From a virus, in the IMG/VR virus record IMGVR_UViG_3300034101_003081, positions 1 through 64,000 of that record: DNA of 64,000 bases, one strand, 5' to 3'. The position numbers and the translations under genes were made by a program. The notes under the pieces were generated by a model that was given only the letters and a program-made list of their open reading frames with translations, was not told where the DNA came from and made no database searches. Positions within the stretch are counted from its first letter, which is position 1, and every line of letters begins with the position of its first letter. Of this stretch, positions 26,287 through 52,381 are shown piece after piece.

Positions 26287-26754
26287 TTAGACAGGCCACA
26301 CGTACGGAAGATCAGCCGGCTCGGACCATCCGAACCGCGAGTAATGCTCCGGAAACTTCCGGAGAAGGTTGGAGCGATGACTGGCATGGAACTCTGGCCG
26401 ACCAATCCAGCCTGGGAGCCCAGAGACGCTGCTCGGTGCGATGTCGGCGTAGGTCAGGCGAATCCACTCGCTGGCCTCGACGAACTGCTGAGTTAGCGTG
26501 TCCTTAAAACCCCTGGCGACCCACTCGTCGCAGACGGCGATCGCGTAGTGGGCCAGGGCCCGCTCGAAGCCGTACCACGCCTTGACGGCGGGGTGGTTCT
26601 TCCAGCGGCTCGCCGAGTTGCCATCGTGCTGGCCGACAGGCACACCGAGAGCGATGAGGATTTGCTTGGCCTCGACTCGCTGCTTGCCGAGACGACGGTC
26701 GTCGAGGCAGCGGGCCGAGTCGCGAAACGATGGCAGGGGCAGGAATGTTTGCAT
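26287..26754 (-). CDS. Pyrimidine-dimer DNA glycosylase-like protein (MSMEG_6728-type)
   Basis: A 155-residue protein. MQTFLPLPSFRDSARCLDDRRLGKQRVEAKQ-type start, KNHPAVKAWYGFERAL and the ending RSNLLRKFPEHYSRFGW are the signature of the MSMEG_6728/pyrimidine-dimer-glycosylase-like family. DNA repair is a family-level guess. Start ATG 26754 with AAGGAG. Confidence 0.75.
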   Translation of the reverse strand: MQTFLPLPSFRDSARCLDDRRLGKQRVEAKQILIALGVPVGQHDGNSASRWKNHPAVKAWYGFERALAHYAIAVCDEWVARGFKDTLTQQFVEASEWIRLTYADIAPSSVSGLPGWIGRPEFHASHRSNLLRKFPEHYSRFGWSEPADLPYVWPV

Positions 26755-26822
26755 TGCTTTGCGTCTCCTTGTGTTGCGTATCCGTACAACTGTGCGAACT
26801 ATCGGGAATGGTTGCGAGATCG

Positions 26823-27071
26823 TCAAGGGGTCGTTCGTGCGTATGACAGAACTGCGAGAGCCTCGCGAACGAGACGCTCGGTTTGCTCGTGCCTCTGCTG
26901 CCGCATCTCTGCGAAGCCGGTGTACTTTCCGCTCAGGTCGCAGTACGCGATGCTCTCGTTCGCCTTGTCGACGAGGCGGCGAACCTTGATCGCCTCGTTG
27001 GCGAGCAACTTCGCGACGAGGTCGGCCTGGGCTGGCGTAAGCGTGATTGTGACTGGCTGGCGATCGTTCAT
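26823..27071 (-). CDS. Small helical protein
   Basis: An 82-residue helical protein, ITLTPAQADLVAKLLANEA, from ATG 27071 with GGAGGAG. It looks like a small dimeric coiled coil. It follows the dispersed element at 27099-27112. Function unknown. Confidence 0.6.
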   Translation of the reverse strand: MNDRQPVTITLTPAQADLVAKLLANEAIKVRRLVDKANESIAYCDLSGKYTGFAEMRQQRHEQTERLVREALAVLSYARTTP

Positions 27072-28843: not shown

Positions 28844-29107
28844 TCAGCCAGCCGAGACCTCTCGCCACTCCGTAGCGTGCCTGCTGCCGCCGTATTCTCC
28901 GCCATTGAAGCCGCCGGGGAGCGCGTCGGGGAAGTGGGCATTCGGCTCGCTCGTCAGCACGAATGACTTGACCACGACGCCTTCGCTCGTGGCACTGAAT
29001 CGGCACTGGCTGGCGCGGCAGCGGTGGCCGTACTTGATGATGACGTCGCCGTCCTGCACGTCCAAGGCGCTGATCCGCTCGGCCTGGGTCTTGTTGATCG
29101 TTTCCAT
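28844..29107 (-). CDS. Hypothetical protein
   Basis: An 87-residue protein from ATG 29107 (AAAGGAG). DVQDGDVIIKYGHRCRASQ is a beta-hairpin-like pattern; the end is GGEYGGSRHATEWREV. It has its own promoter at 29150-29178, so it is a single-gene unit. Function unknown. Confidence 0.55.
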   Translation of the reverse strand: METINKTQAERISALDVQDGDVIIKYGHRCRASQCRFSATSEGVVVKSFVLTSEPNAHFPDALPGGFNGGEYGGSRHATEWREVSAG

Positions 29108-29149
29108 TGTCGCGTCTCCTTTGGGCATGTCGTTCACTCGTCTACGACA

Positions 29150-29204
29150 AGTATTGCAGATGTCGGGAGTGCTGTCAAGCGAAAAAAAGGGGGCTATGAC
29201 ACAA
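29150..29204 (-). promoter_or_regulatory. Sigma70-type promoter with upstream TTGTGTCATAG box
   Basis: -35 TTGACA at 29178-29173, 17-base spacer, -10 AATACT at 29155-29150; TTGTGTCATAG box at 29204-29194. It precedes the gene ending at 28844. Nearly identical to the copy at 29738-29792. Confidence 0.8.
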
Positions 29205-29217
29205 GTCAAAAACCCGG

Positions 29218-29667
29218 TCAGCCGTCGAACTCCGAAGTCTCGTACGCCTCAATCACGTCGTCGATGGTCAACTTGCCGGCAGCGATCAGAGACTTGACCG
29301 TGTACCGGCAGAGCGTCTCGACAGAAACCCCGCACTCAGCAGCGGCCTCGCGAAGAGTCGATGGCCCGCGGTCTTCGTGCGTGTCCAACTTGGCGAAGAC
29401 ATCGTGAACGTCTTGCGGCACGTTGTGGGCCAGAATCCGGCCGTCAGCGAAGGTGTACTCGACGTCCTTGTGAAGGACCGTGCTGCCGTTGGTCGTGACT
29501 TCCTGCTCGTAGTCCGTCGCGCGGATCGTCGTCCCGGCCTTGAAGGCCGCGACGCCGCGGACGCCGTACTTGCACCGCTTGTCGTAATGCGGATTCGGCA
29601 CGTCCTGCGAGAGCGTGAAGTACCGGCTCGACACGGGCTTGCGGGGTCCGATATTGACGTTGCTCAC
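29218..29667 (-). CDS. Hypothetical protein with C-terminal HTH-like part
   Basis: A 149-residue protein from GTG 29667 (AAGGAG). The N-terminal half is beta-rich (RYFTLSQDV, RGVAAFKAGTTIRA). Residues ~100-140 (LREAAAECGVSVETLCRYTV) look like a helix-turn-helix. It may regulate genes near it. Confidence 0.55.
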   Translation of the reverse strand: MSNVNIGPRKPVSSRYFTLSQDVPNPHYDKRCKYGVRGVAAFKAGTTIRATDYEQEVTTNGSTVLHKDVEYTFADGRILAHNVPQDVHDVFAKLDTHEDRGPSTLREAAAECGVSVETLCRYTVKSLIAAGKLTIDDVIEAYETSEFDG

Positions 29668-29737
29668 GGGATGGTCTCCTTGGTCTTGCGTCTCTCGATC
29701 AGCCAGCCACGCGGCTGTCGTTCACTCGTCTACGACA

Positions 29738-29792
29738 AGTATTGCAGATGTCGGGAGTGCTGTCAAGCGAAAAAATGGGGGCTATGACACAA
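29738..29792 (-). promoter_or_regulatory. Sigma70-type promoter, second copy
   Basis: -35 TTGACA at 29766-29761, 17-base spacer, -10 AATACT at 29743-29738; upstream TTGTGTCATAG at 29792-29782. It serves the gene ending at 29218. Confidence 0.8.
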
Positions 29793-29811
29793 GTCAAAAA
29801 CCCCCTGTTTT

Positions 29812-30096
29812 TCAGCCGTAATGCTTATCCGGCGTGAACCCCTGCGGCGGCTTGCCTCGTCCTCGACGTCCTTCCCTGGCGGCCTGGGCCCGCTGGGCGG
29901 CCTGCTCCTTCTTGTAGGCCTTGCACTCGTCGAGGTCGAACGCCAGAGATCGCGGGCCAAGTCTCCACGAACTCAGTCGCCCGGTTCGAGCCAGCCACCG
30001 CAGGTTGCTCATCGAGCAGCCGATGACTTTCGCCGCTTCTCTGGTCAGCACGAGTTGTCGCTTGTCCGCCGGTGTCGCCGCTACCTTCTCAGCCAT
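29812..30096 (-). CDS. Excisionase-like HTH protein
   Basis: A 94-residue protein. LTREAAKVIGCSMSNLRWLA ... RSLAFDLDECKAYKKE is the HTH_17/excisionase-type winged helix; the C-terminus is basic. It may act as a recombination directionality factor or a regulator. ATG 30096 follows GAGGAG. Confidence 0.7.
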   Translation of the reverse strand: MAEKVAATPADKRQLVLTREAAKVIGCSMSNLRWLARTGRLSSWRLGPRSLAFDLDECKAYKKEQAAQRAQAAREGRRGRGKPPQGFTPDKHYG

Positions 30097-30352
30097 GGTT
30101 CTCGTCTCCTCGGGGTGAAAGTCTGAATCGCAGGGCACTCTCAATAATCCAGATATCTCGGTCCACGTACGGGTCGCCAGCATGCTTCTTGATCGCCTCC
30201 AGCACTTGCTTGGCAAACCGAAGGTTCTTCACGTAGCAGACTCGACCAGTCTCGCCTGGGCGAGGCATGACATCGGGCTTTGGCAAGTCTGCCCGTGCCT
30301 TCTCCCATGTTTGGAGCGACAGTTCAGTCTTGTGGTGGGCGTCGTCGTTCAC
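30089..30352 (-). CDS. Hypothetical protein
   Basis: An 87-residue protein from GTG 30352 (GTGA overlap). MNDDAHHKTELSLQTWEKA then KHAGDPYVDRDIWIIESA. No family recognised. Confidence 0.5.
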   Translation of the reverse strand: MNDDAHHKTELSLQTWEKARADLPKPDVMPRPGETGRVCYVKNLRFAKQVLEAIKKHAGDPYVDRDIWIIESALRFRLSPRGDENHG

Positions 30353-30570
30353 GAGATGACCTCCCAGCCGATGCAGGAAAACACCCGGCCCGTCTCTGCG
30401 ACGTCAGGATCGTCGGCATCTCCAGAGACGAGCGTTAGGGTTCTCGCTGTCTTGTCGATGCGAAACACGACGCCAGACCGCGGGATTGCCCACACGCCGC
30501 CGTCCTTGAGCATGTCGACGACCTGCTGGCACCAGTCTAGCGTTGATTGCGGATATGAAAAAGTGACCAT
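30349..30570 (-). CDS. Hypothetical protein
   Basis: A 73-residue protein from ATG 30570 with GAGGAG. It ends RVFSCIGWEVIS. Coupled to the next gene by GTGA. Function unknown. Confidence 0.5.
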   Translation of the reverse strand: MVTFSYPQSTLDWCQQVVDMLKDGGVWAIPRSGVVFRIDKTARTLTLVSGDADDPDVAETGRVFSCIGWEVIS

Positions 30571-30574
30571 AGGT

Positions 30575-30784
30575 CTAGTTGCTCCTCTCTTGTTGAAACT
30601 GGATCGCCATGTCCTCGGCCGTTGCTGGCTTGAGGAGCCTGACGAGGTGATGCTCGCCGCAGCCGCAGAAGGCCTTGTCGTCCCCCTTCGCAGAGAACAC
30701 GACGCGGGCTGTCGTCGGGCAGTACCCGAACGCTTCGCAGACTGCACGGAAGTAGTTGGTCAATTGCTGCAAGTCATGGGCCAT
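30575..30784 (-). CDS. Hypothetical protein
   Basis: A 69-residue protein with KAFCGCGEHHLVRLL (possible metal site). The start overlaps the upstream gene by 25 bp. Function unknown. Confidence 0.45.
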   Translation of the reverse strand: MAHDLQQLTNYFRAVCEAFGYCPTTARVVFSAKGDDKAFCGCGEHHLVRLLKPATAEDMAIQFQQERSN

Positions 30785-31173
30785 GGGCGGTTACTCCAGA
30801 AGAATCGGGCTCGGTCCTCGGTCTCGAACGGCCCGCAGGCGATCGAGCCGTTGACGCAGACGTACCAGCCGTCGTCGCTGAAGACGAGGACAGGCTGATC
30901 GTGCTGCGCCTCAAGCAGTTTTTTCCAGGCCGACTCGATGACGTCTCGCAGTTCGCACGGCATGGACTCGACGTCAGCCTTCTTGAGAAACTCCCACGCC
31001 GCCGCGCACAGCCCAGCCGCATCCGACGCTGTGAGTTCGTTCTGGGACTCAAGTTTCGCCCTCGCGGAACGGATGTGCGGCTCGAACATCTTGGGAATGA
31101 GGCTGTGTTCGTCGAGCAAGTCGACGACGGCTCGCAGACTGCTCTTTTCTTTTCCGGTGAATGTGCTGCTCAT
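30760..31173 (-). CDS. Hypothetical protein
   Basis: A 137-residue protein: helical first half, beta-rich second half (PVLVFSDDGWYVCVNGSIA). ATG 31173 after AAAGGAGAG, preceded by a copy of the dispersed element. Function unknown. Confidence 0.55.
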   Translation of the reverse strand: MSSTFTGKEKSSLRAVVDLLDEHSLIPKMFEPHIRSARAKLESQNELTASDAAGLCAAAWEFLKKADVESMPCELRDVIESAWKKLLEAQHDQPVLVFSDDGWYVCVNGSIACGPFETEDRARFFWSNRPWPMTCSN

Positions 31174-31219
31174 TGGCGTCTCTCCTTTGGGTTCCGTGTC
31201 CAGACAAGCCTCGCGACAG

Positions 31220-31630
31220 TCACTCTGTGACGGGCTCGTGAGTGCCGCCGAAGAAACTCGACGGCGGCCGTGGCAGTTGCCGCAGGAACTCCCAGAGCCC
31301 TGTCAGCGTTGTGGTGTAGATGTCCTCGATCTCGATGCGTCCGTCGTCGGGCTGCTCGACCAGGGTCCGGATCACGACGGACTTCGCCGTGACGTGGGCC
31401 TCGATCGTGCATCGCTCGTAGACCGGGTCTTGCACGACGATCGCGAAGAACGGCTCCTCGTCGGGGTCGTAGTCTCCGGCGTCGGGTTGCGGCCCGGCCC
31501 GCTCCTCCATGATCGTGTCGTTGAACGGCAGCAGACTCGCACGGGCCACGACGAGCCCTGGAGCAAACTCACGCACGTACTGAAGGCTGTCGTTGATCGA
31601 GTCGGCGACGGACTTCTTTTTCTTGCTCAC
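31220..31630 (-). CDS. Hypothetical protein
   Basis: A 136-residue protein starting MSKKKKSVADSINDSLQYV; beta-rich in the middle (FFAIVVQDPVYERC). GTG 31630 overlaps the upstream stop (GTGA). Function unknown. Confidence 0.5.
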   Translation of the reverse strand: MSKKKKSVADSINDSLQYVREFAPGLVVARASLLPFNDTIMEERAGPQPDAGDYDPDEEPFFAIVVQDPVYERCTIEAHVTAKSVVIRTLVEQPDDGRIEIEDIYTTTLTGLWEFLRQLPRPPSSFFGGTHEPVTE

Positions 31631-31998
31631 GATTGCGCTCCTTTCGGTGCCAGTTGCGATGCCAGTTTAATGCACTCGTCGCGAACGTAGTCGACGTCGC
31701 GGAAGATGCCGGTTGTCTCAATGCCAATGCTACTGAGCCCAGGCACGGCGTCGCCGGCGTGGGACGTGTCGAAGCCCAACCACCAGCGTTCGCCGTCTTC
31801 TTCTTCCCATGGCAGTCTCCAGTCCGACCACGTCACGCCGCCGTGAACGTCGAACGACTCGTCGCTTCCATTGGCGCCGGCCGGAGCCTCCACGTAGCCG
31901 TTGTAGTTCCGGAGCAGTGGCCCGCCGAGTGCAATGACGCACCGAAGCCCGTGGGCCTCGAACACGTCGACGACACGGTCGTGATTTAGCGATGTCAT
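31627..31998 (-). CDS. Conserved phage protein
   Basis: A 123-residue protein. RNYNGYVEAPAGANG, FDVHGGVTWSDW and WWLGFDTSHAGDAVPG form a pattern I know as a recurring small phage/plasmid protein without known role. ATG 31998 after AAAAGGAG. Confidence 0.65.
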   Translation of the reverse strand: MTSLNHDRVVDVFEAHGLRCVIALGGPLLRNYNGYVEAPAGANGSDESFDVHGGVTWSDWRLPWEEEDGERWWLGFDTSHAGDAVPGLSSIGIETTGIFRDVDYVRDECIKLASQLAPKGAQS

Positions 31999-32014
31999 GT
32001 CTTGGTCTCCTTTT

Positions 32015-32704
32015 CTATAGAGAAACAACCTCGATCCCGTCCCGGTTCTCCCAGACACGTCGCACGTTGTCCGAGTAGCCGGGCTGCAACTGCTCGATCA
32101 TCGGCAGATACTGCTCGTTGGGCATGCCGCTGCCGACGTCGAAGTCATGGCGGTCGCCAAAAATCCACGCGATGATCGAACGGTACTTGTTGCCGCAGAT
32201 GCGGTAGTTGATCAGCGAGATCGACGGGTCCATGCAAGCCCAGGCCAAGTCTATCTGTTTGCCCAAGTCTATGGTCGCGTATCGCGTGATCGACTCGACG
32301 GGCACGCCGCCACAGTGCGCGACGTTGCCGAGATGCTCGATGCTCGCCTGAGCCAGGTCTCCGTAGTACAGGATCGTGTCGCGGACCTTGGGATGTACCT
32401 CGTCGAGCGGGCGGCCCTCGGTCTTCGCGATCGCCTGGGCGACGAAGTCCTCGTCTGGAAACAGCCGCGTCTCGGCAAGCAGCCGCGAGTTGACCTCGAC
32501 GACGAGCGCCTTCTCGCCCTTATTGTCGTCGGCCGCGTGCCAGGCAAAGTACGGCGCGTACGCTGTGGTCAGGTACACGAAGTCCGGATGACTCGGGTAC
32601 GAGTCCCAGTTCCCCTTGCGTCGCTTGCCTCGCGGCTTGAGGCCCTGAGACAAGATGCGGTCGAGGTACTTGTCCGTCGTGCCGTGGTAGAGCAGTGCGT
32701 TCAT
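32015..32704 (-). CDS. Putative ADP-ribosyltransferase-like protein
   Basis: A 229-residue protein. LYHGTTDKYLDRILSQGLKP and FVYLTTAYAPYFAWHAA match the H...Y pattern of ART-like folds (KptA/PARP/phage Alt type), followed by a strand with LVVEVN. A third conserved acidic residue is not certain. It may modify a host protein or RNA. ATG 32704 after GGAGGG. Confidence 0.55.
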   Translation of the reverse strand: MNALLYHGTTDKYLDRILSQGLKPRGKRRKGNWDSYPSHPDFVYLTTAYAPYFAWHAADDNKGEKALVVEVNSRLLAETRLFPDEDFVAQAIAKTEGRPLDEVHPKVRDTILYYGDLAQASIEHLGNVAHCGGVPVESITRYATIDLGKQIDLAWACMDPSISLINYRICGNKYRSIIAWIFGDRHDFDVGSGMPNEQYLPMIEQLQPGYSDNVRRVWENRDGIEVVSL

Positions 32705-32710
32705 CGTGAG

Positions 32711-32845
32711 TCACCCTCCCAGCGTGCTAATCAACGTGTCTATCAAGTCTCGGACAAGTCTCGCAAGTCTTGAGTCTGTGCCGAGTTCCTGCCCTGCTCG
32801 CACGAGCAGGAGAGAATACAGGAGTTTGTCCAGGGTCTGCTTCAT
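32711..32845 (-). CDS. Very small Leu-rich protein (44 aa), tentative
   Basis: ATG 32845 to TGA 32713, Leu/Arg-rich (DKLLYSLLLVRAGQELG). It fills the gap between two genes exactly and its end carries the GGAGGG site of the next gene. Its own ribosome site is weak. Confidence 0.45.
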   Translation of the reverse strand: MKQTLDKLLYSLLLVRAGQELGTDSRLARLVRDLIDTLISTLGG

Positions 32846-32848
32846 GGG

Positions 32849-33136
32849 TCAGTACTCTCTCGGAAACAGGATCGTGGTCACGCTCCTGTCCCGCTCAGTG
32901 ATCACCCAGACCTTCTCGCCGTCAATCGTGTAGGCCGACAGGACGCGGCCCTCGCCGTCGACGGCCTCGTCGTTGAGTTGCTTGTCCTCGTCGCAGACCT
33001 CACCCCAGTCACCCGTGCGGTGCCGCAGGACGGCCGCGACGATGCCTGGCGTGCGAGACTCCGGCTTCTCCTTGACCCACGAGTCGATGCCTGCTGTGGC
33101 GACGACCAGGCCGAGTGGTAGTTGCGTGGCGTTCAC
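32849..33136 (-). CDS. Conserved plasmid/phage protein
   Basis: A 95-residue protein. TPGIVAAVLRHRTGDWGEVC, VLSAYTIDGEKVWVITERD and a final SVTTILFPREY are a well-known pattern of a small protein common on plasmids and phages. Its GTG at 33136 overlaps the upstream TGA. Function unknown. Confidence 0.75.
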   Translation of the reverse strand: MNATQLPLGLVVATAGIDSWVKEKPESRTPGIVAAVLRHRTGDWGEVCDEDKQLNDEAVDGEGRVLSAYTIDGEKVWVITERDRSVTTILFPREY

Positions 33137-33465
33137 TTGGATGCTCCTTGTTGGCACTCTTTGATACACCGATCGTACTCGCCGCCTGCCCCGTCGAGGC
33201 TCGACGTGTTGAACAGGTAGGCGAGTTGGTGGGCGATCAGACGCAGGGCAGAGTCGTTCCGGATCGACTGCCAGTCGGCGCCGTCGTGGAACATTGCCTG
33301 GACGTGATCGTGCAGCCGCTTCGTGACGGCGACGGGGTTGCAGGCCCCTTGCTGGATTACCACTGCATCGTGATGTCGGTTCATGCGTGCGGCCTCTCTT
33401 TTTTTGAAGAACTCGATCGCTGCCTGCTGCTCCTCGCGGAGCCGCTGTTCGTTGTTCATGTTCAT
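33133..33465 (-). CDS. Conserved plasmid/phage protein (DUF6900-like)
   Basis: A 110-residue protein. VVIQQGACNPVAVTKRLHDH and SALRLIAHQLAYLFNT are a recurring pattern (DUF6900-like) often beside the 32849 gene type. The ATG at 33465 lies 4 bases after the dispersed element, with no ribosome site. Confidence 0.65.
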   Translation of the reverse strand: MNMNNEQRLREEQQAAIEFFKKREAARMNRHHDAVVIQQGACNPVAVTKRLHDHVQAMFHDGADWQSIRNDSALRLIAHQLAYLFNTSSLDGAGGEYDRCIKECQQGASK

Positions 33466-33481
33466 GTTGGCGTGTCCAGAC

Positions 33482-34303
33482 TTAGCAAGACTCAAGACTC
33501 GGGAGGGAGACCCCGCACTGCTCGCAGAGTTTGGCGACCTCGGCGGCAAGTTCTGCCCTGGTGTGCGATCCAGCGCGGCGTGCCTCGCTCGTCGTGACGC
33601 AGCCCTCGTCGACCTCCAGGGCCGCCGGGTAGCAGTGACTTGGCAGGAACCCGAACCGCTCTTGGTGCGACCAGCACAGCCGACGCAGGCTCGCGTTGTG
33701 GCACAGGGCAAACGCGAGACGGTCGACGTCGACCGGCTGGTTCGCTGCCTTGACCAGCACCTCGACTTGGTGCTGGGCACGGCCGCCAGACGTCCGCGAC
33801 GTGGCCTTCGCGGCCCATAGTTCGACTCGCAGTCCCAGGCTTTCCAGAACGTCGACGGCGGCCAGGACAACGGCACCGCGAGCGAAGATCGCCTCGGCCG
33901 TCACGCCCGCACTGACGCCCAGGTTGGCGTACAGCCGGACGACCCGCTGCGACCCGAACCGGCCGGTCTCGTACTCGTTGTAAGAGCCGCAGGATTCCGG
34001 CTCGCCCGACAAGACGCGGCCGACGTCCACGAAGTCGCCGACGGCGTCCCAGGCGAACTGCTGGCAGGCGGCGACCTTCGAGGCCTCCACGTACTGATCG
34101 AGACTAGCCCGAATCTCGGCGACGCGAGCCGCACCCTCGTGCCAGCCAGCGTGCGCCAACTCGACGGCCTGCTCGAACGTGCGAGTGCCGAAGTGGCCTT
34201 CGCGGCCGACGTCGCGGCTGCTGATGCCCTTGACCTGCGGCACCTGGCGGACGTCCTCGACGAAGGCCTCGTACGAGTCAAAAGCGTGGCGGATGTGGCT
34301 CAT
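33482..34303 (-). CDS. CobT/vWA-like paralogue A (degenerate metal site)
   Basis: A 273-residue protein, first of three tandem relatives. Conserved blocks are a TFEQAVELAHAGWHEGAARV helix near 45, GDFVDVGRVLSGEPESCG near 90 and a vWA-like core RVVRLYANLGVSAG then AVVLAAVDVLESLGLRVELW near 120-160. In ordinary vWA domains the first strand ends in DxSxS; here it is NLGVS, so the metal site looks lost. The end is Cys-rich. It has its own promoter at 34329-34383. I infer a partner or adaptor of the AAA+ ATPase at 36159-37424. Confidence 0.65.
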   Translation of the reverse strand: MSHIRHAFDSYEAFVEDVRQVPQVKGISSRDVGREGHFGTRTFEQAVELAHAGWHEGAARVAEIRASLDQYVEASKVAACQQFAWDAVGDFVDVGRVLSGEPESCGSYNEYETGRFGSQRVVRLYANLGVSAGVTAEAIFARGAVVLAAVDVLESLGLRVELWAAKATSRTSGGRAQHQVEVLVKAANQPVDVDRLAFALCHNASLRRLCWSHQERFGFLPSHCYPAALEVDEGCVTTSEARRAGSHTRAELAAEVAKLCEQCGVSLPSLESC

Positions 34304-34328
34304 GTTCGATGTCTCCTGGGGATGTCGG

Positions 34329-34383
34329 ATTATTGCCGACGTCCTGAATGAAGTCAAGCGGCCGGTTTGGCTCTATGACACAA
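34329..34383 (-). promoter_or_regulatory. Sigma70-type promoter with upstream TTGTGTCATAG box
   Basis: -35 TTGACT at 34357-34352, 17-base spacer, -10 AATAAT at 34334-34329; box at 34383-34373 overlaps the stop codon of paralogue B. It serves paralogue A. Confidence 0.75.
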
Positions 34384-35212
34384 CAATGGATTCCCGCTCT
34401 TCGGCCGAGAAAGACACGCCGCACGACTCGCAGACTTGCAAGACTCGGGCCGCCCTGGCCGCCGCCGTTGTGTCACTCTGTCTAACCTCGGGCGTCGCGA
34501 TCGCGCCCTCCTCGACGAGCAGCGGGCACGTCCCCGTGCAGTTGGGGCTGAATCCCAAGTCTTCCTCGACGCTGAAGAACAGCCGACGCAGGCTGGCGTT
34601 GTGGGCCAAAAAGAACGCGATCCGGTCAGGCTCGAACGGCTGGCTGGCATCTTTGGCCTTGACCAGCACGGTCAACTTGTCGCCTCTGATGCGACTGTGC
34701 GAGCCAGAGCCGAGCCACAACTCGACACGGTGGCCGAGCGTCTCCAGCACGTCGACAGCCGCAAACACGGCGGCTCCAGCACTGAAAATGCTCTCCTTCT
34801 TGACGCCGGCAATCGCGGACAGGTTCGCAACTAACTTGATCACTCTCGTCGACGGCTGCGAGTCTTGCCCCTCGCGGAACGATCCGCAGCACTCAGGCTC
34901 GCCAGACAATACGCGGCCAATGTCGATGAAGTCGCCTGTAGTGTCCCACTCCAGTTTGCACGACTTGGCCGCGACAGCCTTGTCGACGACGCTCTCCAAC
35001 TCGGCGCGGAGTTTGGTCAGCCGCTCGGCGCCTGCGGGCCAGCCCTTCGTGGCGAGTTCGACAGCCTCGCCGAACGTCGCCGTGCCATGAAACCCAGCCT
35101 CGACGCCGCAGTGCGAGACCTTGGAGTTCTCGCCCTTGGTGTCGGCGGCGGCAATGAAGTCGCCGATGGTCTCGAACGTCACGACCCGATGATCATCGTT
35201 CTTCTTCTTCAC
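34373..35212 (-). CDS. CobT/vWA-like paralogue B (degenerate metal site)
   Basis: A 279-residue relative of the flanking genes: ATFGEAVELATKGWPAGAER, GDFIDIGRVLSGEPECCGS, RVIKLVANLSAIAG and AAVFAAVDVLETLGHRVELW. It also has HNASLRRLFF, shared with paralogue A. The DxSxS metal site is replaced by NLSAI. GTG start at 35212 after AAGGAG. Same inferred role as paralogue A. Confidence 0.65.
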   Translation of the reverse strand: MKKKNDDHRVVTFETIGDFIAAADTKGENSKVSHCGVEAGFHGTATFGEAVELATKGWPAGAERLTKLRAELESVVDKAVAAKSCKLEWDTTGDFIDIGRVLSGEPECCGSFREGQDSQPSTRVIKLVANLSAIAGVKKESIFSAGAAVFAAVDVLETLGHRVELWLGSGSHSRIRGDKLTVLVKAKDASQPFEPDRIAFFLAHNASLRRLFFSVEEDLGFSPNCTGTCPLLVEEGAIATPEVRQSDTTAAARAARVLQVCESCGVSFSAEERESIVVS

Positions 35213-35238
35213 GGTCTAGTCTCCTTGTCTTGGATTGC

Positions 35239-36069
35239 TCAGGCCTTGACCAGTTCTGCGATCTGCTCTTCGTCGAACGTGAGGCCGCACTTCTCGGCGA
35301 TCTTGATCACGTTCTCTTTCAGGCTCTTCGCCGACAGGTTGACCGCCGACAGAATCTCGTCGATCTCGACCGTGCCCTGACGCTTGCCGTAATCGGCGAC
35401 CGACGCTGGGTGGCAGTTCGACGGGCAGTGCCCGTACAACTCCATCCAGCGAAAACCGAACCGCCGGAAGAACGACGGGTGTGCGACGGTGAACGCGAGG
35501 CGGTCAGGGTCGACGATCTCGCCAGGCCGCTTGGCGACGACGTTCGCCGTGAGGTGAAGGCCGTGACCGCTCGTCGCCGTCGAGCAGATGACTTCGCAGC
35601 GAATGCCGCACGACTCAAGCAAGTCGACCGCCACCAGCACGGCCACGCCGCGGGCCGCGATCGCGTCGGCGCTGACGGCCCCGCTCACGCACTGATTGAG
35701 CCGTATCGACACGACCTTGGACGACACCGTCTCGCCGTTCTCAAACTCCTGGCCGCAGCACTCAGGCTCGCCCGACAGGACACGGCCAACGTCGATGAAG
35801 TCGCCAGTGACGTCCCAGCCGAACGTCCGAGACTTGGCAGTCTTGGCGGCGGAAATAAACGCCGAGAGTCCATCGCGGTGCTTGTTCACGCGGGCGACGC
35901 CGTCTGCCCAGCCCCTCGCGAACAACTCGCCAGCCTCGGCGTAGGTGTCCGTCCAGAAAAACTCCTTCCGGCCTGTGGCCTGGCTGTTCTGGCTCACGCC
36001 CTTGTCGTCGCGGGCGAGGTCTGCCAGGTAGTCGCTCACGGTCTCGTAGTCTTTGACGATCGTCTTCAC
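35239..36069 (-). CDS. CobT/vWA-like paralogue C (degenerate metal site)
   Basis: A 276-residue third relative, the most diverged: TYAEAGELFARGWADGVARV, GDFIDVGRVLSGEPECCGQ, KVVSIRLNQCVSG and VAVLVAVDLLESCGIRCEV. Tandem duplication and divergence explain the series A-B-C. Start GTG 36069 after AGGAGAA. It is the copy next to the AAA+ gene. Confidence 0.65.
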   Translation of the reverse strand: MKTIVKDYETVSDYLADLARDDKGVSQNSQATGRKEFFWTDTYAEAGELFARGWADGVARVNKHRDGLSAFISAAKTAKSRTFGWDVTGDFIDVGRVLSGEPECCGQEFENGETVSSKVVSIRLNQCVSGAVSADAIAARGVAVLVAVDLLESCGIRCEVICSTATSGHGLHLTANVVAKRPGEIVDPDRLAFTVAHPSFFRRFGFRWMELYGHCPSNCHPASVADYGKRQGTVEIDEILSAVNLSAKSLKENVIKIAEKCGLTFDEEQIAELVKA

Positions 36070-36158
36070 TGGGATGGTTCTCCTGGGCGTTGGCTTGTGT
36101 CCCCGCTCCCCGGCCGGCAAGCCCATAGCCAGCCGGGGAGCGTATCCAGACAACTCGA

Positions 36159-37424
36159 CTAGAGGTTCGCCTCGATCTTGCTGCGGGTGTCCTTGTCGAG
36201 CCCCTTCCAGACGCAGGCGTCGAGAGTGGCATCGACGGGCCAGCCAGCCCGAAGCAGGGCGACGCCGTTGATGTTCGCACGCGGCGAGACGATCACCCGC
36301 ACGCCCTTGCCGAGCGAGGCAATGGCATTACGGACGGCGACGACCTTCTTCACGTACTCGGCGACCCGCTCCTCGGCGACGGCCTTCTCGACGTCGGTCT
36401 TCACCGAATGCACCTTGATCCCCTTGGCCTGCGGGGCCTCGGCGAACAACTCCAGGGACAGGCCGCAGGCCGCCGCCTCGATCCGGGGATCGTACTGCCA
36501 GTCGACCAGCACGAACCGATCGAGCGTCGCCGCGTCGATCTGCTGCCGTCCCACGTACTGCCGATCGGCACCCTGCCCGATCGTGTTGGCACCGGCGATC
36601 AGCACGAAGTCGGCATGCTTCGCGACGACGGCGTCGGGGAACGAGGCGTGCCCGTTGGCGAGCAACTGATTGATCACGACCAGCACGGCCGGATTGGCCG
36701 CGTCGACCTCGTCGAGCAGGAACACGCCACCATGCTCGTAGGCGTCGCGGAGTTGCGTCCGCACCACCTTGCCGTTGGCGTCGTGGTAGCCGAGCAGGCT
36801 CGACTCGGACGTCTGCGGGCCGACCGACTTGGCGTAGAACGGCAGGCCGAGCGAGTCCGCGACGGCATGCGCCGACGACGTCTTGCCAGAGCCGGCAGGC
36901 CCGACGAGCCAGCAATTCCTGCGGGCAGCAACGGCGGCGAGCAAGGCCTCAAACTGGACGTGCTGGACGCCCACGTCGTTGGCGACGCCCTCGACGGTCA
37001 CGACCTCGATCCGCTGCGGCACCAGGGCCGCGATCCGCTGATCGACGATCGCCGTGACCTCGTCGATATCGACGCCGCCCTTGCCGCCCTCGGAGGTCAC
37101 GAGCCCGGTGTCGCGGACGGCCTCGGCGATGATCTCGGCGAGGGAACGATTGCCGCGACCGCCGTCGATCTCCGAGTCAGACTCGACCTCGCCGTTACCG
37201 TGTCCAGACTTCTCGGCACCGCTCGCCCACAGGCTCAGGCCCCGGCTCGTCTTGACGACCTGCTCGCCGTTGGGTCCGACGAGATGGAAGAGACGGGACT
37301 GGCGACCCTTCTCGGTCTCGCGGGTCTCGACCCGCTCGATCGTGAACTCCCTGCCGTCCGCGACGGTGATGACGGCGCCGACCTTGTACGACTGCCACGA
37401 GTTGTTGATGACGTTGTTGTTCAC
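36159..37424 (-). CDS. CobS/MoxR-type AAA+ ATPase
   Basis: A 421-residue protein. The first ~155 residues hold a small beta-rich domain (GAVITVADGREFTIERVE) and a linker. The AAA+ module has Walker A GPAGSGKT (175-182), Walker B FLLDEVDA (~235-242) and the CobS-like sensor GANTIGQGADRQYVGRQQ. MoxR-family ATPases act with vWA proteins as remodelling chaperones; CobS pairs with CobT. The vWA-like neighbours on both sides fit. GTG start at 37424 (AAGGAG); own promoter at 37495-37548. Confidence 0.85.
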   Translation of the reverse strand: MNNNVINNSWQSYKVGAVITVADGREFTIERVETRETEKGRQSRLFHLVGPNGEQVVKTSRGLSLWASGAEKSGHGNGEVESDSEIDGGRGNRSLAEIIAEAVRDTGLVTSEGGKGGVDIDEVTAIVDQRIAALVPQRIEVVTVEGVANDVGVQHVQFEALLAAVAARRNCWLVGPAGSGKTSSAHAVADSLGLPFYAKSVGPQTSESSLLGYHDANGKVVRTQLRDAYEHGGVFLLDEVDAANPAVLVVINQLLANGHASFPDAVVAKHADFVLIAGANTIGQGADRQYVGRQQIDAATLDRFVLVDWQYDPRIEAAACGLSLELFAEAPQAKGIKVHSVKTDVEKAVAEERVAEYVKKVVAVRNAIASLGKGVRVIVSPRANINGVALLRAGWPVDATLDACVWKGLDKDTRSKIEANL

Positions 37425-37494
37425 TGGGCTTCTCCTTTTGAAAACCAAATCGACCGGGCTGTGTGATCGAGTGACGTCCACTCGTCATGCGACA

Positions 37495-37548
37495 AGTATC
37501 TCCGCTGTCGGGGATGCTGTCAAGCGGATTCTTTTGACTATGACACAA
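37495..37548 (-). promoter_or_regulatory. Sigma70-type promoter with upstream TTGTGTCATAG box
   Basis: -35 TTGACA at 37523-37518, 17-base spacer, -10 GATACT at 37500-37495; box at 37548-37538. It serves the AAA+ ATPase, with a ~64-base leader. Confidence 0.8.
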
Positions 37549-37868: not shown

Positions 37869-39182
37869 TTAGGCCTGTGCAAGAGCCTCGCACTCGACGA
37901 TGTAGCGAATCACGTTTTCAGCGAAGCCGTCAACGTGAGTCCAACCGTCGTGATAGCCGACGCCATGCTGATACGGCGCGACGTTGATCATGTACGCCGC
38001 ATCTGCCTTCGGGCGCACAACACGGTCATGCGATTGTTCGTCCGTGACCACGATCAGGCGATCGTGGTCGAACTTCTCGACAGCCCGAATCGCTTCGCCG
38101 AGCAGCGTCCCGCCTCGCGGCTGCGAGAGTTGCACGGCCTCGACGCCAGACAGGCCACGACGAGGAGGCACCTCGACCACTCTGTCGGAGAATGAAAAGA
38201 CACGAAGGTCGTCGCAGTTGAGTATTGCCGCGAGCGACGCCGCTGCGTCAAGTCTCGTCAAGTCTGCGCGGCTCGACAGAGGCACGTCCATCGAGCCCGA
38301 GACGTCGACCAGCACGATCGTCTTGCCTGAGAGCCTCGGCAGTTCGTGGATCGACGCGAGCATCGCGATGTCGAGCGTCGGCTCCAGCGACGGCGCGGCC
38401 TTGGCCGCAGCGACGAAACGAAACGGAAGCACTCGCTCGGCGCCGAGCCTGCCCAAGATCGCGTTCTTGATCAGCGACGTCTCGACGCCAGCCTCGACCA
38501 TGTTCCGTAGGTTGCGGAGCAGGGCGAGGTAGCCGATCTTCTGCTCGCGGATCAGTCGCTCGAACGTGGACTTCTTGTCAGCGCCGCCTGAGAGCGAGAC
38601 TTCCCACGTATCGGGAGCAACGAGCGTTCCCTCGACGAGCGATCGCCACAGGCTTGCCTGCTCAGGTGTGTCGGGCTTGGCATGGCACAGAAATAAGACG
38701 TCGCGAAGTTTGATAGCCGACGGCTTGTTGTACTTGGCAAGTTGGTAGGCGTTGAACTTCTTGAACGCCGCCGCGAGGCCTTTCTTCATCGGGTTCGAGA
38801 GCGGCTTCTTGCCGTCGGCCCAGTAGATGGCGACGAGTTCTGCGAGTTCGTCCGCTCGCTGGATCGTGTCGACGATCGCCTGCGAGACGAGTTTGCCGGA
38901 GCCGTGCTTGATCAGCCCCTTGAGCAGGAGCAGCGGAACGTGCCGCAAATGAAACTTTGAGCGAGCCTCGACGGCGAGAGATGCGATCTCGTCGGGCGTG
39001 ACCTTCTCGCACAACGAGAGAATGCGATCCGCAACATCGACGCCATCCTCGTAGTGCGTCGACTCCCACAGCAGGCACGTCAGGACGGTGCGTCGCAGTT
39101 CCTGGCTGGGCGTGATCCGCACAGCCGGAGCGCCCTCGTGCGTGACTGCGGCATTCGAGGCGGGAGCGGTGTTGAGTCGCAC
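37869..39182 (-). CDS. rsr: Ro60-like TROVE/vWA RNA-binding protein
   Basis: A 437-residue protein. Residues ~20-285 match the TROVE ring of Ro60 (RTVLTCLLWESTHYEDGVD, VEARSKFHLRHVPLLLLKGL, LAAAFKKFNAYQLAKYNKP). The C-terminal vWA domain has an intact metal site, VDVSGSMDVP near 292-301, with later VFSFSDRVVEVP and LIVVTDEQSHD. Ro60 proteins bind Y RNAs and damaged RNAs; bacteria and a few phages have them. GTG start at 39182 (CAGGAG). Long 188-base leader with tandem repeats. The symbol follows the Deinococcus orthologue. Confidence 0.9.
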   Translation of the reverse strand: MRLNTAPASNAAVTHEGAPAVRITPSQELRRTVLTCLLWESTHYEDGVDVADRILSLCEKVTPDEIASLAVEARSKFHLRHVPLLLLKGLIKHGSGKLVSQAIVDTIQRADELAELVAIYWADGKKPLSNPMKKGLAAAFKKFNAYQLAKYNKPSAIKLRDVLFLCHAKPDTPEQASLWRSLVEGTLVAPDTWEVSLSGGADKKSTFERLIREQKIGYLALLRNLRNMVEAGVETSLIKNAILGRLGAERVLPFRFVAAAKAAPSLEPTLDIAMLASIHELPRLSGKTIVLVDVSGSMDVPLSSRADLTRLDAAASLAAILNCDDLRVFSFSDRVVEVPPRRGLSGVEAVQLSQPRGGTLLGEAIRAVEKFDHDRLIVVTDEQSHDRVVRPKADAAYMINVAPYQHGVGYHDGWTHVDGFAENVIRYIVECEALAQA

Positions 39183-39201
39183 GGCTGGGCTCCTGGCTGA
39201 T

Positions 39202-39365
39202 GAGGAAGAGAAATGCTGGCGAGAACAGCGAGGCCGGGGGATCAAACAGCCTTAGTGTGAAGTAACCGGACTCTGCACTACGCCAGCAAGGCGACAAGAG
39301 CCGCGAGAACAAACGGACACGGCGTGGTTTCTATCGCAAAGAAGTAGCCGTGGCCTGCACTACGC
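39202..39365 (-). ncRNA. Tandem ~82-nt repeat leader; candidate Y RNA-like element
   Basis: Two imperfect units, 39365-39284 and 39283-39202. Each starts GCGTAGTGCAG, then five variable bases, GG(C/T)TACTTC, and has TGTTCTCGC ~55 bases from the start. GTAG pairs with CTAC in unit 1 and with TTAC (a G-U pair) in unit 2, a small sign of RNA structure. It lies between a promoter and a Ro60-like gene. Y RNA is inferred from context; no tRNA-like fold was recognised. Confidence 0.45.
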
Positions 39366-41088: not shown

Positions 41089-41116
41089 AGTGTACGGACA
41101 CGCCAACTGTGGTCAA
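41089..41116 (-). promoter_or_regulatory. Leaderless promoter with inverted element
   Basis: -35 TTGACC at 41116-41111, 16-base spacer, -10 TACACT at 41094-41089; the spacer ends GCGTGTCCG. ATG at 41082 follows six bases after the -10. The -35 overlaps the stop of the regulator upstream. Confidence 0.7.
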
Positions 41117-41559
41117 GATTTTTTTCGCCGCCCCGGTGAGCGTCCGGACGCTCGCTTCTTTGGCGATCGTCGCTCGCCGACGAGACGAGGCCTGCCGTAC
41201 TGCGGCGGATTGGCGAGGTACTCGCGGATGTTTCGTTCGCACGACTCGCGGTCGACCGCCCAGCATTTGTCGTTGAGCCGAAACCCCTTCAGGCGACCGT
41301 CCACGAGCATGCGGCCGATCATGGCGTCCGTGACGCAGACAATGTCACAGGCCTCGGGCACGCTGATCCACCGCCGGCAGGCCTTTTGGAACGCCTCTAG
41401 ATTGCAATCCTGTGCAAGCACCGACTCGTGGCAGACCAGCAGACCCTTGCCGCTCAGAGGGACAGCCAGAATCTGTCCCTTGGCGATCCGCTTGAGGACG
41501 CCGACTTGGGAGATTTTGAGAATTGCAGCCGCTTCGGCCACGGAAATGGGCTGTTTCAT
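41113..41559 (-). CDS. Tandem HTH regulator
   Basis: A 148-residue protein with two MerR/excisionase-like HTH parts: ISVAEAAAILKISQVGVLKR (~5-25) and ISVPEACDIVCVTDAMIGRM (~65-85). The end is very basic (SPKKRASGRSPGRRKKS). It lies beside the + strand integrase and between two copies of the dispersed element, so it is a candidate for the lysogeny switch or for binding the element. No ribosome site is seen. Confidence 0.7.
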   Translation of the reverse strand: MKQPISVAEAAAILKISQVGVLKRIAKGQILAVPLSGKGLLVCHESVLAQDCNLEAFQKACRRWISVPEACDIVCVTDAMIGRMLVDGRLKGFRLNDKCWAVDRESCERNIREYLANPPQYGRPRLVGERRSPKKRASGRSPGRRKKS

Positions 41560-44332: not shown

Positions 44333-44562
44333 AGCCTTCTCCTGACGAAGCGCAGCCGGGCCCGCCAGGTCATCTTTGCTGGGCCGCCGAGATACATGAT
44401 TATCCGATATTGAACCCGATTCCCCCAAGCGTCGAGCGATGCCATTCTTTGGCCGCAGCCGCAATTTTTTGCTCCGAACAGCCTGGCGATGCGGGTCTCT
44501 GATATGCCGCAGGCGGCCAAAGCCCTGCCGAGGACAGTTCCGATCGGGACGGGGCGGATCAT
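44308..44562 (-). CDS. Small basic protein at the end of the late operon
   Basis: An 84-residue basic protein: VLGRALAACGISETRIARL looks like a helix-turn-helix, followed by NCGCGQRMASLDAWGNR. ATG 44562 overlaps the stop of the giant tail gene (ATGA). Function unknown. Confidence 0.6.
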   Translation of the reverse strand: MIRPVPIGTVLGRALAACGISETRIARLFGAKNCGCGQRMASLDAWGNRVQYRIIMYLGGPAKMTWRARLRFVRRRLWKTIASN

Positions 44563-47500
44563 TGAGTCGTGTCCCGAACGGCGAGGGTGACTGACGGCTG
44601 GGACTGTGGCGCCGAGAATCTGTCGTGCGTAGCCCAGCCGTGCATCTCATTAGACCACTTCGGCCGAATCACGCTGACGCTGACTGGGCTCAGGCATTTA
44701 CCAAATACTTGAACGGCCACACCAGGCGGGAGCCTCTTCAGGTTGGCTGGGTGCCTGTCGCCTTGCACGAACGTCGGGTGGGAGTGCGACGCATCAAGCG
44801 TTGCTTCAGTCACGAAGCCGTCGTCGAAGAACAGTTCAACGCGAGTAAAGGGCTTGTTTGGGTCAGGCTCTAAGTTCTCGTCCGCTCCGTAAGAACTCCT
44901 AGTAACCCCGAAAGGCGGAATTGACGTCAAAGCAATGCGGCGACTTTTCTCCCCAGCCGGCAACTCGAAGTATTCGTGTGTTGCATTTTCGATGCGGACA
45001 TACTGGCTTTTATTTCCGTCGTAAAAGTCTGCGTAGTCTTTATCTGTTTCGACGAACGACACGGCTGGCGGAGACGTGTAGCCAGAGCCAGGCGACGTCA
45101 CGGTGACAGAGACAACCTTTCTGCGGAGAGTGGTTTGCTCTTCGTATCCCATTACGGCGACAGCCGTCGCGCCGCTGCCGCCTCCGCCATGCAAGACCAC
45201 GGTCGGCGTCGACGTGTATCCGCCGCCCTGAGACGACACTGATACCGACGTGACTGCGCCGTTGACTACAGTCGACGACGCTGACGCTGGAGTGATGAGA
45301 GGTCTGCCTCCGGAGACGACCGCTCTCGCAAGAGAGCCATATCCGGCACCGCCGGAGCCGACTAAGGCAGAGCCATATCCGTCGCTGCCGACAGCCACAG
45401 ACAGCGACGCGCCGCTGCCGACGTCGCACTCGACTTTCACGGTGGGCGGAACCGAGAACTTGTAGGCAGACACGGGTTGAGATAGGCCAAGATTAATCCC
45501 ATCAAAAAACGCGCCAGTTATAGTCCCGCCGGACAGGAACTGAAACACCAACTCGCGAGCGCCTTCTGGAAGAAAGCCTTCGCCGCGCGCCTGGTAGAGT
45601 CGCGTGGTTAAGTCTCCGATCTGGTCTCCAAGTTCGGCTCGCGAAGATTCGAGCAGCGAATTGAGTTCCTGCATGGACTTGGCCCACGAGTTGATAGACA
45701 CCGGCTGCGGAGGCACGCCTGTCTTTTTGCCTACAGCATCAACTCGGAGCGACGTTGAAGAGCGAATGACATGCGTATTCCAGAAAGAAACGAGTGGCTT
45801 TTGCCGAAACCATGTTGGCACTTCAATTGGAGGAACGCCGGGAGGGGAAGTAAGCGAATCAATCGGGCCGCCTGGAGTGTCAAACACATTGACGTTCGCG
45901 ATTCGCTGCTTGAGGTCCGCAAAGCGGGCCAGGTCCGGAGCGTAAAGCATCCCAGATAGGTGGCCGCCGTAAGGGTCGAACACGACTTGATCGACTCGCC
46001 CCTCTGCGTGGTGAATCCAGTACCGAGACTGAATCATGTCGCCGTCTCTGAAATACGGAATGTTGTTGCCCCAAGTCTGCCCTGGTGGAATGCGAGGATA
46101 CCAAAGGCCTAGCGGTGGCATGCCTGTGAGCGGGTCGTATGGCCCTACAAGTGCCGGATCAAGCCGATAGGCATATCCAGAGCCGCCGCTTTCGATAGAC
46201 AGAGATGTGTTTCCCTGTATTCGGGCCTGCGCTGCTGCCCTGTAGGGCTTGACTGACTCGGAAAACTCTTCTTCCGTGATCTCGCCGGCTGAGAGTTGCT
46301 CTTGAAGAGACTGGATAGCCTCGTTGCCTCCTCCTGAAAACGTGATATCAGGAGGAGTCGAATACCCGGAGCCGCCGCTGGTGACATTGCAGTAGATGAC
46401 AGAGCCGTTGATTTTGCACGTCGCCGCCGCGCCCGATCCGACGGCTGCCGTCGTGGCCGTCGCTGCAGCGCCGGTCCCGCCTCCGCCTTGGAAGAAGACC
46501 TGCGGCGGCCTGTAGTACCCAGAGCCGCGACTTGTGATCTTCATGTCCTCAACAGGGCCCGCAATGAAGGCCGTCGCAGACGCGCCGCCGCCAGGTTTGC
46601 CGGGATGGACGTCGAAACGGACTGCTGGCGCGTGTTGATATCCTCCGCCTTGCGACCCGACGGACACAGCAGAAACGGCGCCGGTGGTTGGGTCAATCGC
46701 CGCAGTAGCAGTGGCCGGAGACGGAGGCCCGATAAAAGCCGTGGCGGACGCGCCTGTGCCGCCGCCGCCGGTGAGGAAAACAGTCGGCGGCAATGTGTAT
46801 CCAGAGCCTCTCCCCGAGATCGTGACGCCAAGCACTTCTCCTGTGAACTGGTCTATCGTTGCGGAGGCCGATGCCCCGCTGCCCCCGCCGCCTGCAAACG
46901 AAACGGCTGGAGCAGACGTGTACCCGAACCCAGGAGTGTCAAGTTTGATGTACACGACAGAGCCATTTCCGGCTTTGTGGCCTCCAGAAAAAAAGACCTT
47001 CGGCGGTTCGCTGTAGTTGGCGCCGCCAAAGTCCGTGCGAACGCTCACGACCTTCCCGTCAATCGTGCAGGTTGCGGCCGCGCCACTGCCGCTGCCGCCG
47101 GTAATCAAGACCGAAGGAGGCAGTGAGTAGCCGCTGCCTCCGGAGCCTAATTCAAGCGATTCAATGTCTGGAACCGGCTCGAACGTCACGGACGGCGCTG
47201 CCCTGTACCTCCCCCCCTCGGAGACAGAAACAGCCGTCACCTTGCCGTCCACGATTCGCGACTCCGCAACAGCGGAGATGCCTGGCTGCGAAAAGACTAC
47301 CTTTGGAGCGACGCGGTATCCTGATCCGCCCTGCGTGACGGCTACGGATTCGACTGGACCGGCGATCGCGGCCTGGCAGGAAGCACCTCCTGAAATACTA
47401 ACCGTCGGGACCGTCCTGTACCCAGACCCCTTGTTCGTGATTCCGACACTGACAACTGCTCCATCGAGCGATGCCTCGGCAACCGCGACGCCGTCGGGCT

Positions 47501-52010: not shown

Positions 52011-52381
52011 CACGAACACTCAGCAGCAACAAGAATCCACGTTGTGCCCTCAAGGGCAACCGCGCAGCGACGTGTTTGTCCAGAAGGCGGCGCCGCAATG
52101 TGCGAAAAGATGTTGCTCGCAATCGCCGTAGCCGCCGTGTCCCTAATAAAAGTGATCGTCTTGAGCGTGTCCTTGCTCCATGAGCCAGTAAACCTGGCTG
52201 TTGCAAAAGAGCCGCCGCCGCCGACAGCGCGAGGTAATGAACTCGGATTACGGTCTCTCCTTGCGGTCTCGACCGTATGGACAACGCTGGCGATCCGCTG
52301 GGCGTCTCGCTGCCGAAACTGAACAGGCTGCTCGCCTTTGTTTGCGGAGGCCTTCTTCTTGAATTGGCTGATATTCAACAT
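52010..52381 (-). CDS. Small tail tip protein
   Basis: A 123-residue protein, mixed alpha/beta, with Gly-rich loop AVGGGGSFATARFTG and a final RRCAVALEGTTWILVAAE. TGATG overlap with the giant tail gene. Function is inferred from position. Confidence 0.6.
   Translation of the reverse strand: MLNISQFKKKASANKGEQPVQFRQRDAQRIASVVHTVETARRDRNPSSLPRAVGGGGSFATARFTGSWSKDTLKTITFIRDTAATAIASNIFSHIAAPPSGQTRRCAVALEGTTWILVAAECS

Follow-up and report, generated by a model that had tools for sequence, protein, structure and literature searches.

The window, a 64,000-nucleotide stretch taken from a 97,385-base virus record, carries minus-strand genes that are each preceded by a promoter with a short upstream box (Table 1). 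An earlier note, made from the sequence alone, had proposed that one promoter module is shared by the ATPase gene, paralogue A (a DUF7192 gene) and two genes at 29 kb. All four copies were found on the minus strand, where the positions given in that note mark their low (-10) ends, and each could be paired with a gene, which supports the proposal. The small gene behind module 1 has an ATG start and the Shine-Dalgarno sequence AAAGGAG. The pyrimidine dimer glycosylase gene behind a fifth module precedes genes for an SNF2 helicase, a PDDEXK protein, a Prim-Pol and a further helicase. The five-module set combines accessory and replication genes, and we infer that it belongs to an early or middle class.

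Several neighboring features were recorded in passing. Three DUF7192 paralogues lie in tandem (33482-36153) and adjoin the MoxR/CobS-like ATPase gene. In two other phages, Silverleaf of Mycobacterium and Tunturi_4 of Tunturiibacter, a DUF7192 gene and such an ATPase gene are likewise adjacent. Upstream of the ATPase gene, a TROVE plus vWA (Ro60-like) protein is encoded at 37869-39245 and is conserved in related contigs G003, G004, G400, G413 and G416. Three giant genes (44559-52019, 53379-58142 and record positions 68775-77537; 2486, 1587 and 2920 aa) occupy the half of the genome that appears structural.

Table 1. Promoter modules, their target genes and candidate regulators in the window.
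Feature	Position	Strand	Remarks
Module 1 box, TTGTGTCATAG	29194..29204	-	exact match; centre about -56 from expected start
Module 1 promoter, TTGACA-17-AATACT, spacer GCACTCCCGACATCTGC	29150..29178	-	serves gene 28844-29107
Module 2 box	29782..29792	-	exact match; directly behind gene 29812-30096
Module 2 promoter, TTGACA-17-AATACT	29738..29766	-	serves 29218-29667
Module 3 box	34373..34383	-	box TAG is stop codon of DUF7192 gene 34373-35212; same in G003
Module 3 promoter, TTGACT-17-AATAAT, GGACGTC in spacer	34329..34357	-	serves DUF7192 gene 33482-34303
Module 4 box	37538..37548	-	exact match
Module 4 promoter, TTGACA-17-GATACT	37495..37523	-	serves MoxR/CobS-like AAA ATPase 36159-37424
Module 5 diverged box, TTCTGTCATAC	26841..26851	-	conserved in G003, G004, G398
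Module 5 promoter, TTGACG-17-GATAGT	26798..26826	-	serves pyrimidine dimer DNA glycosylase 26287-26754
HTHa, 94-aa MerR/Xis-like winged HTH protein	29812..30096	-	top candidate box-binding factor
HTHb, tandem winged HTH (HTH_17 twice)	41113..41559	-	also in relatives without box
MoxR/CobS-like AAA ATPase	36159..37424	-	module 4 target
DUF7192 paralogue A	33482..34303	-	module 3 target
Gene 29218-29667	29218..29667	-	module 2 target; C-terminal stretch weakly HTH-like

Exact TTGTGTCATAG occurs four times in the window and the same four times in the whole record, always on the minus strand, against a chance expectation of 0.01 (dinucleotide shuffles; none of 100 reached four copies). When two mismatches were tolerated the count of 8 did not differ significantly from the 7.1 expected, so the signal is carried by the exact copies only. 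All four lie 15-16 bases from a TTGAC[AT]-17-nATAnT promoter. As the earlier note had claimed, spacing is constant to within one base: the gap between box and CTTGAC is 14, 14, 14 and 13 bases in modules 1-4, and the -35/-10 spacer is 17 bases long in each. A search of the whole record for CTTGAC-N-NATANT returned five matches, all on the minus strand, namely modules 1-4 and a site at 26798-26827 that carries the diverged box 15 bases ahead of the TTG. This site is counted as a fifth module because of the like distance of its box and its conservation in three relatives; the original count of four holds for exact copies and had overlooked it. Modules 1 and 2 are near-identical across more than 80 bases and arose by recent duplication. 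As duplicates they are not independent of each other, while modules 3, 4 and 5 are.

The promoters were compared with the sigma-70 pattern, defined as a TTGACA-like -35 and a TATAAT-like -10 placed 16-18 bp apart. Modules 1-4 match 10 of the 12 hexamer positions with a 17-base spacer, and module 5 matches 9. Transcription from promoters of this type starts about 7 bases past the -10 element. The first ~20 bases of the predicted transcripts (TGTCGTAGACGAGTGAACGAC) are conserved among modules 1, 2 and 4 (29130-29170, 29718-29758 and 37475-37510) and in G001, G003, G004 and G398. This degree of conservation goes beyond the needs of a plain leader and might reflect an RNA hairpin or a further operator.

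A search for the module in relatives, as suggested in the earlier note, located it in 13 or more contigs of related, uncultivated phages. Relatives G001-G004 and G398-G403 were found when viral contigs were scanned for the module and for the ATPase; G419, G420, G426, G427, G441 and G442 were added through searches with the HTH proteins. Gene comparison places the relatives in one lineage of mostly co-linear genomes. The box stands ahead of the ATPase promoter in the window and in G001-G004, G399, G400 and G403; contig G402 (L128) has its first bases within it. Contigs G414, G416 and G418 carry HTHb and do not extend over the early region, so the absence of the module there is uninformative. 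By the proteins tried, none of 50,697 phage records is closely related to the lineage. In tblastn searches of phage records, the capsid protein, ATPase, helicase, DUF7192 protein and HTHa gave remote relatives or none. The first scan of the viral collection with the module gave 62 matches, mostly in unrelated coding or AT-rich sequence. In another, collection-wide scan, chance matches in low-GC DNA had distances spread over the full range of 3-31 bases.

The placement of the box follows a simple rule. At 161 promoter-like sites from ten contigs, the core GTGTCATA (at most one mismatch) gave 38 forward matches where 2.35 were expected, at 4-7 (9 matches), 14-17 (27) or 36-38 (2) bases from the -35, while the reversed core gave 5 matches at scattered distances. 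Five hold-out contigs gave distances of 4 (five times), 5, 6 (twice), 15 (twice), 16 (three times), 17, 28, 36, 37 and 38, with no reversed match; the site at 28 is a stray with one mismatch. A non-redundant set comprised 38 modules, 30 of them exact in the core, and all occupy the same three ranges in a single orientation except the one stray at 28. With a period of 10.5 bases the vector length was 0.86 for these 38 modules and 0.87 for 16 lineage-by-class means, a value never reached in 100,000 uniform draws; these figures apply to modules of common ancestry and to distance classes that had been seen before testing, except in the hold-out. The class means are about 5, 15.4 and 37 bases, with steps between them of roughly one and then two more turns of the helix, and put the centre of the box at about -45, -56 or -77. 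Since the distances step by whole helical turns, the boxes lie on one face of the helix. The modules show both positional traits of class I/II activator-dependent promoters, a directional site upstream of or beside the -35 and displacement by whole turns, and an activator that touches RNA polymerase would require such a site. Every exact box in the record precedes a promoter and is oriented with transcription.

Upstream reading frames of at least 80 codons use the TAG of the box as their stop in more than a dozen of the 38 modules. This would agree with the box being a translation or mRNA-end feature (GTG TCA TAG, closing the upstream gene) that lies near promoters through compactness only. 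Such an origin is highly improbable: the box is intergenic in most of the remaining modules, its distance to the -35 is kept whereas that to the upstream stop is not, and TAC takes the place of the TAG in module 5 and its relatives.

The second element, overlooked in the earlier description of the upstream box, is a palindrome in the spacer between -35 and -10, roughly CNGACGTCNG (a consensus drawn by eye), which is also present at promoters without a box. It is similar within one phage and different between phages, reading GCACCG-N4-CGGTGC in G400, G402, G426 and G427, ACNGANNTCNGT in G001, CCTANNTAGG-like in G002 and G419, CNGRCRTCNG-like in the window's group, CGCGACGTCGCG in G411 and ACCGACGTCGGT in G413. 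Its place between the -35 and -10 suggests that it serves as a repressor operator; that HTHb binds it is a guess. The two elements, their spacing rules, their orientation and their conservation are established by these comparisons.

Box and palindrome could also work together in repression, with the box protein meeting the palindrome factor so that the promoter is shut by a loop whose formation requires correct phase. Conserved phase would be expected here as well, and, judged by eye, box-to-palindrome distances seem no more variable than those between box and -35. The palindrome, however, occurs without the box at many promoters, and box centres near -45, -56 and -77 are usual activator positions; we regard looping as unlikely. 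The helical phasing seen in many relatives favors a site for a factor that contacts RNA polymerase. Of the two roles first offered for the box, activator or repressor site, the phasing thus leans toward the former, and the more general claim of a regulator site is supported.

Which protein might bind the box was considered for the three HTH candidates named in the earlier note. The product of 29218-29667 was rejected as a regulator; it is itself a module target, and of the relatives compared, G003 and G398 alone have homologues. HTHa was retained. It is present in every box-bearing contig except G399 and G403, both of which stop next to the ATPase gene and do not reach the HTHa locus. In most box contigs a box promoter immediately follows the HTHa gene; in G402 the box forms the end of the HTHa gene. 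An AF2 model of HTHa predicts a single winged HTH (H-H-E-E-H) with a helical tail (pLDDT 75 overall, 80-90 in the domain). The nearest folds are mycobacteriophage Pukovnik Xis and BldC, in weak matches with a best E value of 0.038. In a sequence comparison with the HTH_17 and excisionase families, the Pfam match is below cut-off (E 0.022), and PHROG 66, an excisionase/regulator family, is matched with E 2.4e-7.

HTHb, whose single chain is predicted to hold a pair of winged HTH domains, would suit an asymmetric site much as RamA does with two HTHs per chain, and is kept at 45-86% identity in all box contigs that cover its locus. We nevertheless consider HTHb a distinctly unlikely binder and disfavor this part of the original proposal: its identity to the window's protein is 60-61% in G411 and G413, which have no canonical box, versus 45-46% in box-bearing G001, G399, G400 and G403. 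G411, a 90-kb member of the family (HTHb 61%, ATPase 50%, capsid protein 77%), has only a remote homologue of HTHa and no box. In G413, HTHa is 40% identical and a changed element, AAGTGTCCA[AG], accompanies four of the five promoters that have a palindrome; its distance is 29-30 bases or more, out of phase with the canonical boxes. The box is thus gone or altered where HTHa diverges, and this comparison, two contrasts in one lineage, favors HTHa as the likeliest candidate. G413 also has a long conserved upstream element, TTTCTCAnnnnCCnAAGTGTCCAnTCAG, ahead of its palindrome promoters (L251 1-8000, L263:3050-3145), which is perhaps the counterpart of the box.

Alternatively, the box might be the site of a host activator or nucleoid protein common to the hosts of these phages, the phage itself encoding only the spacer repressor. 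The -35 and -10 elements are of host type, and the box is near-constant though phage proteins differ by half. Yet the box is lost or altered in G411 and G413, otherwise near relatives, and in 392 Planctomycetota genomes, which may not represent the phylum of the host, box plus -35 was found twice versus once for the reversed control. We consider a host factor fairly unlikely, and a host-wide element was rejected on the genome counts. A search of 294 Planctomycetota genomes gave no HTHa. One strict module lies on the Limnoglobus roseus chromosome (L112:2970-3022), where a prophage remnant with Gp157/RecT follows it and a divergently oriented HTH_17 gene has its start within the module's span. 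That locus has no convincing phage genes in common with the window's lineage, and the match may be due to chance.

The string aGGGGTTTTTT, which precedes several boxes, is absent from module 3 and from others and was for that reason not counted as belonging to the module; it forms the right arm of a hairpin, resembling a terminator, that belongs to the upstream gene, clearly so in G003. A search of Rfam found nothing.

Taken together, we tentatively favor sigma-70-type promoters of one regulon, with HTHa as a predicted activator on the box and a separate factor on the palindrome. Each of the four (five) promoters would carry two control elements. The asymmetric box, the core followed by a purine, would be the site of a factor that the phage encodes, HTHa being the likeliest, which would contact RNA polymerase from one helical face and activate transcription in the class I/II manner. 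The palindrome would serve as operator for a second protein, presumably a repressor made by the phage, and would mark a wider set of promoters. That the box is bound by protein, that HTHa is this protein and that binding activates are three points that we infer. The -35 and -10 elements may be good enough for the promoters to do without activation, and HTHa-type proteins may instead bend DNA or serve as excision factors.

The arrangement resembles class I/II activator-dependent sigma-70 promoters, such as those of CAP and RamA, in having an upstream or -35-adjacent site at positions one or two turns apart and a small activator, which in the case of RamA acts as a monomer (PMC8811837). It differs from them in its 11-bp phage box, its presumed activator with a single MerR/Xis-like winged HTH and its palindrome-filled spacer. 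The predicted HTHa fold is that of BldC and phage Xis/RdfS proteins, which are small, MerR-like and lack an effector domain (PDB 6ama, 4j2n, 8dgl); BldC forms multimers on direct repeats, whereas a single conserved box is present per promoter here (PMC5859096, PMC11963761). The L5-type operators/stoperators of cluster A mycobacteriophages, bound by a monomeric two-domain repressor, are short asymmetric sites that are repeated in one genome and oriented with transcription, as here; stoperators also occur outside promoters, in intergenic spaces, while all exact boxes here stand at promoters at a phased distance (PMC9283540). With scattered, non-promoter sites absent among the exact boxes of the record, assignment to the stoperators was rejected. 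The late promoters of P2-family phages are activated by Ogr/Delta at about -55, through a TGT-N12-ACA dyad and an activator with zinc-finger cysteines. Their phage activator site is centred near -55, as in the modules here, and a near-consensus -35 sets the present promoters apart. The dyad was found in none of the five modules and a CxxC zinc-finger motif in neither HTHa nor HTHb, and assignment to the P2 Ogr type was rejected on these grounds.

Among the papers listed as containing the string TTGTGTCATA, no title concerned a phage promoter. The general principle is already known; the novelty lies in how the parts are combined and in the phage lineage. It is possible, if doubtful, that a new control scheme is at work in this family of ~90-100 kb uncultivated phages, in which a 94-residue Xis/BldC-like winged-helix protein would recognize one asymmetric box, centred near -45, -56 or -77, and activate transcription in a sequence-specific way, box and activator co-evolving, and would be joined by a palindromic spacer operator of common design that diversifies between lineages. 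The sites, the spacing rule, the candidate activator and the candidate operator make this a directly testable regulon, and the many natural spacing variants offer a ready-made test of activator phasing. If HTHa is an activator, a role in phage transcription would be added for small proteins of the excisionase-like kind, whose usual annotation is that of recombination factors.
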